Positions 3,061-40,583 of a stretch of DNA of 54,652 nucleotides are shown piece after piece (position 1 is the first letter of the stretch; the number at the start of each line of letters is the position of its first letter). This DNA is from Paludibacteraceae bacterium (GTDB taxonomy: Bacteria; Bacteroidota; Bacteroidia; Bacteroidales; Paludibacteraceae), in NCBI GenBank assembly GCA_024401435.1, contig JAKSLB010000008.1, positions 1 to 54,652 of the forward strand, in the 5' to 3' direction. The notes beneath the pieces are model-generated. The model saw only the letters and a program-made list of their open reading frames with translations, searched no databases and was not told the origin of the DNA. A program made the position numbers and the translations under genes.

Positions 3061-3068
3061 TATTTATA

Positions 3069-3118
3069 GGAAATTTCTATAAAATGCTTTGTAGTGCTTT
3101 TGTAGATTTTTCCAGACA
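3069..3118. repeat. Truncated copy (C) of the ~200-bp palindromic repeat
   Basis: This 50-bp stretch matches the left end of the full element at 27064: TTTCTATAAA, then TGCTTTGTAGTG, then TTCCAGACA against TTGTCAGACA. The rest of the element is missing. It lies just beyond the tRNA-Leu terminator, in a 350-bp stretch (2809-3158) that has no gene. Confidence 0.65.
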
Positions 3119-3155: not shown

Positions 3156-3158
3156 CAG

Positions 3159-3242
3159 TACCCAGACCCGGGGTCGAACCGGGATGGAAGTGAATCCACT
3201 GGTGTTTGAGACCAGCGCGTCTACCGATTCCGCCATCTGGGC
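3159..3242 (-). tRNA. tRNA-Leu(CAA)
   Basis: The minus-strand sequence of 84 nt has acceptor GCCCAGA paired to TCTGGGT (with a G-U first pair) and discriminator A. The anticodon arm is CTGGT-CTCAAAC-ACCAG with anticodon CAA. A long variable arm typical of class II tRNAs (TGGATTCACTTCCA region) and a T arm CCCGGTTCGACCCCGGG follow. The 3' CCA is not encoded. Confidence 0.95.
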
Positions 3243-3254
3243 ATCATTGAGTTG

Positions 3255-3278
3255 TTTCTCAAATGCGGTGCAAAGGTA
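3255..3278 (-). promoter_or_regulatory. tRNA-Leu promoter
   Basis: The minus strand has TACCTTTG (3278-3271) followed by GCACCGCATTTGAGA. That sequence is nearly identical to the tRNA-Gly unit at 209-186, including the bases downstream of the -7 box, so both tRNA units use the same extended promoter. Confidence 0.7.
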
Positions 3279-3439
3279 TAACTATTTTTTGTTCTCACAA
3301 ACTTTTACATCAAAAAAAATGAGTAAAACAACTGCATTTTTATTTAATCTCTTATTACTCAAAGAAATATTTTTCTCTCTGAAACTTCTTTCTAACATAT
3401 TAGATTCACGAACAGAAGTTCGTGTTTCCCACAAGAAAA

Positions 3440-18966: not shown

Positions 18967-19163
18967 GGAGGGTTCTATAAATTGATTTCAAAGGATTTTG
19001 AATTTTATCTTGTGCAAGTTGTTGTACAAAAGAAGGAAGCAATCAAACATCACAACCAACTGACGATCAACAAGTTGTCAAGAGAAAAACAAAAGTCTTG
19101 AAAAGTTCATATCGCCCATTTCGTTATACTTCTATTTTAAACGGTGAATTTATAGAACTCACC
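18967..19163. repeat. Full copy (B) of the ~200-bp imperfect-palindrome element
   Basis: The left end reads GGAGGGTTCTATAAATT and the right end AATTTATAGAACTCACC, which are imperfect terminal inverted repeats. The interior is also an imperfect palindrome (for example TCTTG...CAAGTTGTTG on the left against CAACAAGTTGTCAAGA on the right). The right end alone can form GGTGA/TCACC, which in copy A is GGGGA/TCCCC, a compensatory change. It holds no ORF of note. The 439-bp gap between cysS and the next gene contains only this element and two promoters. Confidence 0.75.
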
Positions 19164-24083: not shown

Positions 24084-24140
24084 GGGGAACACAGAATTGT
24101 CTTGTTGTGAATTTGAAAATTTTTTCAGATTGATTATTGA
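24084..24140. repeat. Truncated copy (D) of the ~200-bp palindromic repeat
   Basis: GGGGA at the left, AATTGTCTTGTTGTG, then GAATTTGAAAATTTT and TCAGATTG match the left third of the element at 27064. The TTCTATAAATT end is blurred and the right part is missing. It lies 3 bp after the yraN stop codon. Confidence 0.6.
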
Positions 24141-24142
24141 TT

Positions 24143-24529
24143 TCACATATTGACATAAGGAAGGAAAGCATCTTCTAAATGTTCAAACGTATCCACATTA
24201 CCAGCCGAATCAATCGTCATAGAAATAATATCAAACCTTGTTTGTTTTGTCACATTATACCGTTTAATATATGCATTAGCAGCAAAAACCAAATTTTGAA
24301 TTTTCGTTTTATTAACGCTTTCAACAGGCGATAATAAAGAGCCTTTTTTTCTCGTTTTCACTTCAACAATCACTAAAAAATTGTCCTTTTCCGCAACAAT
24401 ATCGATTTCATATTTTCCATAACGCCAATTTTGTTGCTTGATCACAAAGCCTTTTGATTGTAGATACTCGACAGACTTTCCCTCTCCTAACACTCCTAAA
24501 TCATTATGAGCAGCCATAAATTTTTTCAT
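24143..24529 (-). CDS. yraN: YraN family (UPF0102) endonuclease-like protein
   Basis: Small restriction-endonuclease-fold protein of the UPF0102 family, linked in other bacteria to DNA processing but without a settled function. The 128 residues have the family core: GEGKSVEYLQSKGF (about 15-28), NWRYGKYEIDIVAEKD with the catalytic-type Glu/Asp, and VIVEVKTRKKGS. The end (FDIISMT) is normal. The ATG at 24529 gives four extra residues before the more family-like start MAAHNDLG at 24517, and both are possible. A -7 box lies at 24560-24567. Confidence 0.9.
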   Translation of the reverse strand: MKKFMAAHNDLGVLGEGKSVEYLQSKGFVIKQQNWRYGKYEIDIVAEKDNFLVIVEVKTRKKGSLLSPVESVNKTKIQNLVFAANAYIKRYNVTKQTRFDIISMTIDSAGNVDTFEHLEDAFLPYVNM

Positions 24530-26976: not shown

Positions 26977-27025
26977 TCTGTCTAAACGTTTTTTCACATA
27001 TCATTTATTTTTATAGAAGTATCAA

Positions 27026-27056
27026 TTTGTATTATCAACACGAATAACTAAATTTG
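27026..27056 (+). promoter_or_regulatory. Promoter of the rarA operon, just before the repeat element
   Basis: TTTG (27026-27029), 19 bp, TAAATTTG (27049-27056) is a near-ideal Bacteroidetes promoter. The expected start near 27062 coincides with the left end of the palindromic element at 27064, so the whole element would be the rarA leader. Confidence 0.65.
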
Positions 27057-27063
27057 TATAAAA

Positions 27064-27268
27064 TATGGGGATTTCTATAAATTGCTTTGTAGTGAATTTG
27101 AAAATTTTGTCAGACAGATTGCTAATTTGAGCGAAGGAGCCGTGCAAGCACTATGACTGAATGAAAAATCAGCAAGATGGCGACAAAAATTCAAAAGCAC
27201 ACAAAAGATAGAAGAATAATCCTTATTTAATAATTTTAAAAATCGGGGAATTTATAGAAGTCCCCATA
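27064..27268. repeat. Full copy (A) of the ~200-bp imperfect-palindrome element
   Basis: The terminal inverted repeats of 20 bp match at 19 positions (TATGGGGATTTCTATAAATT at 27064-27083, and AATTTATAGAAGTCCCCATA at 27249-27268). Inside them come further inverted segments (TTTGAAAATTTTGTC against GACAAAAATTCAAA; TTGCTAATTT against AAATCAGCAA), so the whole 205 bp could fold as one long imperfect hairpin with the apex near GAGCGAAGGAGCC. It has no coding capacity. It occupies most of the 370-bp gap between serine palmitoyltransferase and rarA. Confidence 0.8.
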
Positions 27269-27288
27269 TATAACTCCGTAGTAAAAGA

Positions 27289-28578
27289 ATGAGTGTTAGT
27301 CTCGTACAACCATTAGCAGAAAGAGTTCGTCCAAAATCATTAGATGAATATGTCGGTCAAAAACATTTGGTCGGTGAAAATGCTATTCTTCGAAAAATGA
27401 TTGAATCAGGAAGAATCTCCTCTTTCATTCTATGGGGACCGCCAGGTGTAGGAAAGACAACACTTGCAGGTATTATTGCAAAAAAACTAGAACGTTCCTT
27501 TTTCACCCTTAGTGCCATAAGTTCTGGCGTCAAAGAAGTAAGGGAGGTGATAGAAAAAGCAAAAACTGCTCGATTGTTTAATCCAGAACCACCCATCTTA
27601 TTTATCGATGAGATTCACCGATTTTCAAAAGCACAACAGGACTCACTCTTAGGTGCAGTAGAACAAGGTATCGTGATTCTTATTGGAGCAACGACAGAAA
27701 ATCCCTCATTTGAAGTAATCACGCCACTGCTTTCACGATGTCAAGTCTATGTACTGAAACACCAAGAAGATGAAGATTTGCTGGAATTAGCACAAAGAGT
27801 TATAAAAGAAGATAAAATACTAAAAGAAAAGAAAATCTTTTTGGATGAAACAGAATCTCTTCTCCGATTTGCAGGTGGTGATGCTCGCAAATTATTGAAT
27901 ATCATTGAACTCGTTGTAAACGCTGATGAAAACAATGATGAGATTCATTTCACAAATGAGAGAGTTATTGAACGTCTTCAAGAAAACCCAAACGCATACG
28001 ATAAAAATGGAGAAATGCATTACGACATTATCTCCGCATTCATTAAATCGATTCGTGGTAGTGACCCCGATGGCGCAATTTATTGGTTAGCCCGTATGGT
28101 TGATGGTGGAGAAGATCCTAAATTTATAGCTCGTAGATTAGTTATATCTGCCGCAGAAGATATCGGATTGGCAAATCCAAACGCTCTTTTGTTAGCAAAT
28201 GCTTGCTTCGATGCAATTCATAAAATAGGATGGCCAGAAGGTAGAATCGTTTTAGCTGAAACAACTGTTTATTTAGCTACAAGTCCTAAAAGCAACTCTG
28301 CTTATCTTTCTATTAATGATGCATTAGCAAAAGTGAAAGAGTCAGGAAATTTACCTGTACCTTTACACCTACGTAATGCACCAACAAAACTGATGGAAAA
28401 ATTGGATTACGGTAAAGATTACAAATATTCTCACAATTATCCAGGACATTTCGTAGTTCAAGAGTTTTTACCCAATGGAATATCAGGTACACAATTTTGG
28501 ATACCACAAGACAATCCTGCGGAAAACAAACTAACAGAGCGAATGAAATACCTTTGGGGTAACCACAAAAAATATTAG
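27289..28578 (+). CDS. rarA: Replication-associated recombination protein A (MgsA/RarA AAA+ ATPase)
   Basis: AAA+ ATPase related to clamp loaders that acts at stalled replication forks. The 429 residues have Walker A GPPGVGKT (50-57), Walker B LFIDEIHRF (about 103-111), sensor 1 GATTENPSFE and sensor 2 GGDARKLLN. The C-terminal tetramerisation domain (SAFIKSIRGSDPDGAIYWLARMVDGGEDPKFIARRLVI) is also present. The length matches the family. It is the first gene of a likely operon with the S41 protease (19 bp downstream) and the nucleotidyltransferase. The leader contains palindromic element A. Confidence 0.95.
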   Translation: MSVSLVQPLAERVRPKSLDEYVGQKHLVGENAILRKMIESGRISSFILWGPPGVGKTTLAGIIAKKLERSFFTLSAISSGVKEVREVIEKAKTARLFNPEPPILFIDEIHRFSKAQQDSLLGAVEQGIVILIGATTENPSFEVITPLLSRCQVYVLKHQEDEDLLELAQRVIKEDKILKEKKIFLDETESLLRFAGGDARKLLNIIELVVNADENNDEIHFTNERVIERLQENPNAYDKNGEMHYDIISAFIKSIRGSDPDGAIYWLARMVDGGEDPKFIARRLVISAAEDIGLANPNALLLANACFDAIHKIGWPEGRIVLAETTVYLATSPKSNSAYLSINDALAKVKESGNLPVPLHLRNAPTKLMEKLDYGKDYKYSHNYPGHFVVQEFLPNGISGTQFWIPQDNPAENKLTERMKYLWGNHKKY

Positions 28579-39155: not shown

Positions 39156-40436
39156 TTAAGCTTTAAATAAACTTTTCAAAGCATCAGCACAATCTGTCTT
39201 TTCCCACGTAAACAACTCAACCTCACGAGAGAATGTTTTGCCATAACGATCTACAAATTTTTTTGTGACCATCTTAGGCTTACGTCCCATATGACCATAC
39301 GCTGCAGTCTCTTCATAAATTGGATTACGTAATTTCAGACGATCTTCTATTGCCTTAGGTCTCATATCAAAAATCTTACTATCTAAGATTTCCTTAGCCA
39401 TTTGACCGTCGGACATATTCACCTTTGACGTACCATACGTATTGATAAAAAGATTCATTGGTTCGGCTACACCAATAGCATAAGCCACCTGAACCAACAC
39501 CTCATCCGCTAATCCTGCAGCTACAATGTTCTTTGCCAAATGACGAGCAGCATAAGCTGCTGAGCGATCTACCTTTGAAGGATCTTTTCCAGAGAATGCG
39601 CCTCCACCATGAGCACCTTTTCCTCCATAAGTATCAACAATAATCTTACGACCTGTTAATCCGGTATCTCCATAAGGTCCTCCAATAACAAATTTACCTG
39701 TTGGATTCACCAATAATTTATAATCACCCTTAAATAAACTTTTATATTGAGGATGTTTTGTCAAAACACGTGGTATTAATATGTTTTCAACATCAGCACG
39801 TATCTGTGCAACCATTTCCTCATCAGCTTTCAACTGATTCTTAGAATCAACAATAAACTCATCATGTTGAGTTGATATAACAATTGTATCTACTCTCTTT
39901 GGCTTATTATCATCACCATATTCGATAGTCACCTGCGATTTAGAATCCGGACGTAAATACGTCATCTCCTTACCTTCCTTACGAATTGCCGCTAATTCTA
40001 TCAAAAGCACATGAGACATATCCAACGAAATAGGCATCATACTTTCTGTTTCATTACAAGCATAACCAAACATCATGCCTTGATCACCTGCTCCTTGATT
40101 ATATGGATCTTCTCGTTCTACACCTCTATTGATATCTGGAGATTGACCATGCAAAGCATTTAAGATACCGCATGATTCACTATCAAACTTATATTCGCTC
40201 TTTGTGTAACCAATATTTCGTATCACTTCACGAACTATATCTTGTTCGTTAATCAAAGCAGAAGTTTTTACTTCACCAGCAATTATTACCTGTCCCGTTG
40301 TCACTAAGGTTTCACATGCCACCTTTGAATTAGCATCTTGGGCTAAAATATTATCTAAAATAGCGTCTGAAATCTGATCAGCCACTTTATCTGGATGACC
40401 TTCCGAAACTGATTCTGAAGAGAAAAAATAACTCAT
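39156..40436 (-). CDS. metK: S-adenosylmethionine synthetase
   Basis: Makes SAM from methionine and ATP. The 426 residues begin with [25 protein letters not shown] (4-28), carry [13 protein letters not shown] (the ATP-binding GAGDQG) and [24 protein letters not shown] with the [19 protein letters not shown] loop. The size, larger than the 384-residue E. coli enzyme, is normal for Bacteroidetes. Its leader of about 140 nt holds a SAM-II riboswitch (40520-40572), so expression should fall when SAM is high. Confidence 0.97.
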
Positions 40437-40519
40437 ATTATTACTATTTATAGGTTTTAATCATTTATAATATTAGATAGATAAAAAACAAGGCACAACA
40501 AAAACCTACAAATAACGAA

Positions 40520-40572
40520 GATTCGTTTTAGCATTATTTTTGTGTGGTTGCAAGCAGTCAAATCTATCCACA
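40520..40572 (-). promoter_or_regulatory. SAM-II riboswitch in the metK leader
   Basis: The minus-strand RNA of 53 nt follows the SAM-II (metA motif) plan. Stem P1 is TGTGG/CCACA. Between its strands lies ATAGATTTGACTGCTTGCAA, matching the conserved loop (GAUUUaAC...UUGCAa). Past P1 come AAAAATAATGCTAAAA, with the conserved GCUAAA, and CGAATC. The loop segment GATTTG pairs with CGAATC to make the H-type pseudoknot P2. The flanking segment can also form a small alternative hairpin (ACGA/TCGT) that would compete with P2. Placement directly before metK fits a SAM-responsive switch. Recognised by eye against the known consensus. Confidence 0.88.
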
Positions 40573-40583
40573 TTTTTCGGTTG

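Follow-up and report, generated by a model that had tools for sequence, protein, structure and literature searches.

The 54,652-nucleotide stretch of DNA analysed here (the window; positions 1 to 54,652 of contig JAKSLB010000008.1, GenBank assembly GCA_024401435.1, from a Paludibacteraceae bacterium) includes two full copies, A and B, of a palindromic element of about 200 bp located ahead of rarA and cysS, respectively. These copies belong to a family of miniature inverted-repeat transposable elements (MITEs) that is probably mobilised by an IS1168-type transposase and carries a portable folded core, probably under selection. A MITE had been proposed as the simplest reading in a preliminary description of the window made from the sequence alone, and this proved right, as judged by 4-bp target duplications, empty sites, many copies, a patchy distribution among species, and an insertion sequence (IS) with the same ends. 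The description had also allowed for a regulatory RNA. The covariation behind that suggestion is present, but it belongs to a mobile hairpin core found across species, in other gut bacteria too, and not to a switch at rarA and cysS.

Copies of the element in the window and in other genomes

Both elements were found where the preliminary description had placed them (27064-27268 and 18967-19163), with the limits of copy A corrected to 27067-27265. Copy A is a full MITE of 199 bp on the plus strand with the ends GGGGATTTCTATAAATT ... AATTTATAGAAGTCCCC, and an ATAT target duplication is read on its left (27063-27066) and right (27266-27269). Copy B (18967-19163, plus strand, antisense to cysS) is a full MITE of 197 bp and of a diverged subtype, with the ends GGAGGGTTCTATAAATT ... 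AATTTATAGAACTCACC; its left flank (TTTT) and right flank (TTTA) differ by one mismatch. Folding z-scores were -4.98 for copy A and -2.64 for copy B, and 3 of 200 shuffled versions of B fold as well as B itself. A truncated left-end copy at 3068-3118 (plus strand, repeat families D2 and D8) and a truncated left-side copy at 24095-24143 (plus strand, repeat family D7, 82% identical to A) are probably the truncated copies C and D of the preliminary description; neither was matched by the covariance model of the core described below.

A search of the genome and its relatives, as had been suggested, revealed many copies beyond those first noticed. BLAST with copy A gave 56 matches in its own genome, including at least 28 near-full copies of the A type (A among them) at 82-100% identity, 40 of 138 candidates being scored for this count. 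BLAST with copy B returned B, two diverged relatives, fragments, and the ends of A-type copies. The elements have terminal inverted repeats, with ends of ~17 bp. Their common end sequence TTCTATAAATT was counted 118 times in the draft genome (3.83 Mb) versus 8 times for the reversed control pattern; hence, the element ends are not due to chance.

Candidate rows from the own genome and its relatives were oriented by the right-end hairpin. There were 99 rows in the right orientation or undecided, reverse-strand duplicates being skipped; 86 were kept, and a genuine copy (L011) was among the 13 dropped. The length of 79 of the 86 is 194-201 bp, and the elements are too short to encode a transposase. 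Three rows of 185 bp or less (second readings of L015 and L027, and L124) were set aside, and the other 83 were used to assess duplications and gene context. Identical 4-bp flanks were found at 55 of these 83 elements, as compared with a mean of 14.5 and a maximum of 26 for permuted partners in 2000 permutations. The duplicated targets are AT-rich, TTAA being the most frequent.

The distribution of the family is patchy. By DNA similarity, it was detected in 8 of 41 genomes including its own, and the exact end pattern is present in 21 of 200 genomes (7 of 33 genera) of the family Paludibacteraceae. A scan of a genome collection for the ends identified at least 108 stretches; all titles among the 80 listed name Bacteroidales groups, counting two Candidatus genera that we take to belong to this order, and all but one are labelled as metagenome-assembled genomes. 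No match was found when plasmids were searched with copy A.

Much shorter elements, of 64-96 bp, were also seen (L197, 4262-4326; L158, 7196-7288; L034, 1498-1594). These mini-elements retain both ends, are flanked by a matching 4-bp duplication, and are probably internal deletions. Furthermore, genomes G003, G004 and G014 (loci L061, L062 and L063) have a decayed element in a common position ahead of one gene, whose protein starts with MGAKKNFVLDTN; it is an old insertion common to three species.

A covarying hairpin core

The middle 64 nt of the element form a hairpin of almost constant length. The core hairpins of copy A (27116-27180, plus strand; 63.4 bits, E 3.7e-12) and of the degenerate copy B (19016-19078, plus strand; 38.1 bits, E 2.9e-6) were recognised by covariance model R1, both being among the sequences used to build it. 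Alignment A1 comprises 67 of 69 distinct cores (L041 and L062 were omitted as too divergent), and its thinned version, A2, leaves out 34 of the 67. Both sides have changed at 16 of the 20 pairs in A1, and 88.5% of its cells are paired. Its covariation score of 0.485 compares with 0.186 (sd 0.011) for shuffled alignments and with at most 0.139 when the alignment was slid. The covariation test that had been proposed together with a covariance model was thus positive. The original hint was a single compensatory change in the right-end hairpin, from GGGGA-ATTTATAGAAG-TCCCC in copy A (27245-27265, plus strand) to GGTGA-ATTTATAGAAC-TCACC in copy B (19143-19163, plus strand). This change, read from the sequence, is real, and the 16 pairs of the core give much stronger support than was claimed.

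Tandem G.A/A.G mismatches stand between the paired stretches of the core. Two inner tandem 5'-GA-3'/3'-AG-5' mismatches are held in register, the expected residues being present at the four inner positions in 47, 59, 49 and 55 of the 67 sequences of A1. In the next mismatch pair outward, G.A occurs in 27/67 and A.G in 45/67. Subtypes of the element differ in the linker that follows the hairpin stem on its right.

A G.A mismatch on one strand corresponds to T.C on the other, which is less stable, and the kept G.A mismatches therefore favour folding of one strand. When the strand was judged by mismatches in a fold without G.U pairs, G.U numbered 101 versus 21 for A.C, and 25 versus 12 in distinct contexts. 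Counts of G.U versus A.C were 108 and 21 in the alignment across different elements (A3, see below), which was fitted to the model; the strand asymmetry by this measure is suggestive at best.

There is no credible Rfam match for the core-carrying elements. No match to the elements was obtained at the gathering score in the window, and none for copy A up to E 5. Permissive searches gave five matches for L105, all at E 0.18 or worse; for nine other loci, the only matches were a tRNA lying at the edge of a locus and a single miRNA model (E 0.3).

The core between different terminal repeats

A covariance model built from the IS1168-type elements alone identified cores in 6 of 198 Bacteroidales genomes including the own genome, and also reached cores in other families. 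After the new cores were added, the widened model detected the core in 15 of 393 genomes, the own one included, and in 11 of 207 genera. With at most 13 matches scored per genome, G455, a one-contig genome, had 11, G432 at least 13, and G572 12. The matched cores are nearly all 62-66 nt long, also between other ends.

Besides IS1168-like ends, the cores are surrounded by GAGCTTGTTTAAWAATAAAT, GAGCCTGTCTAAATTTT, GAARCTGTTTRAATTT, GAAGTCATTTAAACTT and GAGATWGTCTAAAA, and at least one 3-bp TNA duplication was found for each of these end types. Its presence between such different ends is a hint that the folded core has an activity of its own. Under a fixed rule, a terminal repeat with a duplication was found at 25 of 52 core loci (24 duplications of 3 bp and one of 4 bp) versus none of 50 control placements. 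The cores covary across these loci (0.601 versus 0.212 for 51 distinct rows in A3, an alignment fitted to the model), and in the same fitted alignment the inner mismatches are retained in 35, 42, 43 and 44 of 51.

Three of the foreign ends, scanned alone in viral contigs as a forward test, gave eight loci, one of which has a paired end. This locus measures 233 bp, has a TTA duplication, and carries a core at E 9e-8; the other seven have neither a paired end nor a core. A search of viral contigs for the core pattern found none.

In G432 (L321-L325), elements of 322 bp carry a pair of cores, inverted relative to each other and separated by about 160 bp. Near the core in G572 (L344, L345) lies yet another type of end, GACCCCGTTC..., and the terminal repeats there are unassigned under the fixed rule. 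The core match at L309 (G396) was rejected as probably false, since the locus is very AT-rich and has no terminal repeats with a duplication. L320 contains masked bases.

Nested elements were found in G006 and G013, where a B-type element lies inside a repeat of roughly 392 bp with GAAGYTGTTTAAATTT-like ends. The complete composite is present at 9 of 23 loci examined, and as three pairs are the same places in two collections, these represent six distinct loci. A 3-bp duplication flanks five of the six, so that movement of the whole nested composite by means of the foreign ends is most likely. Such nesting illustrates how elements can come to exchange their ends.

A candidate transposase

Scanning viral contigs for the end pattern identified 33 stretches, including a 1321-bp insertion sequence that encodes a transposase of 355 aa. 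This transposase shares 99% identity with a plasmid protein annotated as an IS1168-family transposase and 78% with one annotated as IS1169 family, and was assigned to the IS5 family by NCBIfam NF033581 and Pfam PF01609 and PF05598. The IS1168 copy reads ATTA|GGGGACTTCTATAAATT...AATTGATAGAACCCACC|ATTA, with a 4-bp duplication, and its ends match those of the MITE. Among 16 genomes of the genus represented by the window, IS1168-type relatives were found in three: an intact 1327-bp relative (61% aa identity) with TAAA duplications in G013, a broken one in G007, and two remnants on one contig of the own genome. The G013 genome carries 30 exact matches to the MITE ends. Six partial matches to PF01609 were found in the own genome, and one of them, L087, is an IS1168-type remnant.

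Thus, autonomous elements sharing ends with the MITE are represented by IS1168 and its G013 relative. Loci L001-L197 were searched for pairs of ends spaced by 330-6000 bp and flanked by a 4-bp duplication, with up to 2 mismatches allowed per end, and none was detected. The core model found no match in seven IS1168-type loci, and, with the remaining interior compared by eye and at the ends only, an origin of the MITE by internal deletion of IS1168 was not supported. The IS1168-type transposase is, from these comparisons, the best candidate for the mover.

Insertion sites at rarA and cysS

The promoters claimed for the two genes are present at the positions given in the preliminary description, and sister species without the insertions have kept this region upstream of both genes. 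The likely rarA promoter (27026-27056, plus strand), with TTTG at 27026-27029 and the -7 box TAAATTTG at 27049-27056, lies just upstream of copy A, which is separated from the rarA ATG at 27289 by 23 nt. The -7 box of cysS is TATTTTTG at 19198-19191 on the minus strand. The promoter type to which these boxes were assigned is presumed from general knowledge. The TAAATTTG stretch is conserved in G002, G003, G004 and G014, where the element is absent, and copies A and B were each inserted between the start codon and a promoter-like sequence conserved in sister species.

Comparison of occupied and empty sites, also proposed earlier, showed the rarA site to be empty in G003, G004 and G014, whose rarA orthologues (93% identity) are preceded by TAACTAAATTTGTA with a single ATAT. 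The cysS site is empty in G003 and G014, which have TATTTTTGCAAAAAA ahead of the ATG, and G004 has a relic of roughly 40 bp farther upstream of cysS. On this comparison, the insertions of A and B would most simply post-date the species split.

A possible older relic of an element end occurs upstream of the rarA promoter as TTTATAGAA followed by CCTACC in G003 and G004. The same possible relic is seen in the window at 27007-27020 as TTTATAGAAG, and in three sister species (L199, L200, L201).

Proposed explanation and alternatives

We suggest that an IS1168-type DDE transposase supplied in trans would recognise the terminal repeats and move the MITE, insertion generating the 4-bp AT-rich target duplication seen at the elements. 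Given their insertion just downstream of conserved promoter-like sequences, transcripts of rarA and cysS would carry the element as a folded leader of 200 nt, as a by-product of insertion. The core would be under selection as a folded single strand, either RNA or single-stranded DNA (ssDNA), of the left-to-right strand, and would keep its place while elements exchange ends, for instance by nesting.

Several observations weigh against this explanation. The own genome yielded nothing more than remnants of a transposase, and G003, G004, G006 and G014 carry repeats without a detected transposase, the search having used draft assemblies, which may miss insertion sequences; hence, the case for recent mobility is made by the insertions. 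Within an insertion sequence, the two ends resemble each other only in part, and their identity to each MITE end is likewise partial. As for the core, 27 of the 52 loci in other genomes have no terminal repeat with a duplication under the fixed rule, and the terminal-repeat rule without the duplication is undiscriminating (48/52 versus 46/50 controls). Conservation across elements with other ends does not extend to the third tandem G.A (positions 14-15). Unfitted A1 contains 112 G.U versus 65 A.C, and its shuffles are asymmetric too (145 versus 113). In L118 (4859-4922), but not in its relative L120, the 5' arm complements the 3' arm exactly along 18 nt. A template-switch event is the likely cause, and since such rewriting of an arm can imitate covariation, part of the covariation may be mutational. 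To these is added the unbiased orientation of the elements relative to genes, considered next.

A reading of the elements as regulatory leader RNAs for housekeeping genes, which might for instance sense a ligand or control rarA and cysS jointly, would agree with the genuine covariation in the element interior and with the position of A and B between the start codon and a conserved promoter-like sequence. However, the inserts at rarA and cysS are absent in sister species, and no Rfam family was matched at the levels given above. Moreover, with open frames called by a simple caller, 47 of the 83 elements lie between tandem genes, the others being between divergent (17) or convergent (6) genes, inside an open frame (5), or at locus edges (8); AT-rich intergenic control positions in the same loci were 2065 tandem, 1076 divergent and 360 convergent. 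Of the 47 tandem insertions, 22 are closer to the downstream start (50% in the control), with 23 in one orientation and 24 in the other. The 83 elements therefore show no fixed position and orientation before genes, and leader enrichment was rejected for the family. The preliminary description of full copies placed as leaders holds for A and B and not for the family, for which the regulatory-leader reading is already refuted as a rule; as an account of the elements it is highly improbable. Leader placement is a consequence of intergenic insertion, and that of A and B is incidental.

A different alternative is that the core is a passive palindrome without function, in which pairing is kept by shared ancestry and by templated mutation through template switching between the arms. 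Palindromes are prone to template-switch events, and the rewritten arm of L118 is an example of what this alternative predicts. Templated mutation would, however, erase mismatches, and the inner G.A/A.G mismatches are kept in register in both A1 and A3; the core also retains its length between other ends, whereas the adjacent linker varies by subtype. Passive maintenance is thus unlikely, and functional selection on the fold appears more likely from these alignments. Transposition itself could also require the core in DNA form, whether as a cruciform or as a host-factor site serving several IS5-type transposases. Its occurrence in elements with several terminal repeats and the unbiased orientation of insertions fit this proposal, but the seven IS1168-type loci searched are without the core, and the kept G.A mismatches are on one strand only, the T.C of the other strand being less stable as a matter of general knowledge. 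A role in transposition is accordingly rated as rather doubtful, though a little less so than passive maintenance.

Selection on a folded single strand carried by an IS1168-type MITE is thus preferred. A bolder extension, which we hold only tentatively and consider improbable on balance, is that what persists and replicates is the folded core and not the ends. It would be a small structured module of Bacteroidales, either RNA or ssDNA, that spreads with any IS5-type ends at hand. If so, a nested insertion would switch ends, and one core lineage would be mobilised by several different transposases.

Other features of the window

A SAM-II riboswitch (40518-40577, minus strand, 67.5 bits) is located upstream of a minus-strand open reading frame at 39156-40436. 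A repeat of 56 nt is present at 181-236 and 3250-3305 (77% identity). The latter copy adjoins a tRNA-Leu gene (3158-3242), and some 130 bp separate the former from a partial match to a tRNA (1-51). As the minus strand of the copy at 3250-3305 reads TACCTTTG, the repeat is possibly a shared tRNA promoter.

Comparison with known systems

In the open-access texts available to the searches, neither the present MITE family nor a core common to different terminal repeats was found. BrickBuilt and other MITEs of Porphyromonas gingivalis have different ends, such as AAGACCTTTGCA, and BrickBuilt, unlike the present MITE, has internal 23-nt tandem repeats; no common core is described in the available portion of that report (PMC4596501). 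The ERIC, Correia/NEMIS, BOX and RUP elements resemble the present MITE: they are small, palindromic and mobile, fold when transcribed together with a gene, and can have effects on mRNAs next to them. They come from other lineages, and the accessible parts of the two sources describe no core common to different terminal repeats (PMC2267715, PMC3049150); compensatory change or covariation is not mentioned in the available text of PMC3049150. Among insertion sequences, IS1168 and IS1169 of Bacteroides, both of the IS5 family, have terminal repeats like those of the MITE (GGGGACTTCTATAAATT and GAGGAGTTCTATAAATT, respectively), with a 4-bp duplication at the IS1168 copy examined and without one at the IS1169 copy. 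Unlike the MITE, they encode a transposase, are about 1.3 kb long, and are unmatched by the core model.

MITEs are usually viewed as ends with a disposable filling, whereas here the filling is the most widely kept part. Functional folded modules in non-autonomous elements, and a change of the mobilising transposase, thereby become testable, and covariation in a leader need not indicate a riboswitch. Set beside the systems above, the MITE family itself is of a known kind, and the new part is its conserved portable hairpin core.
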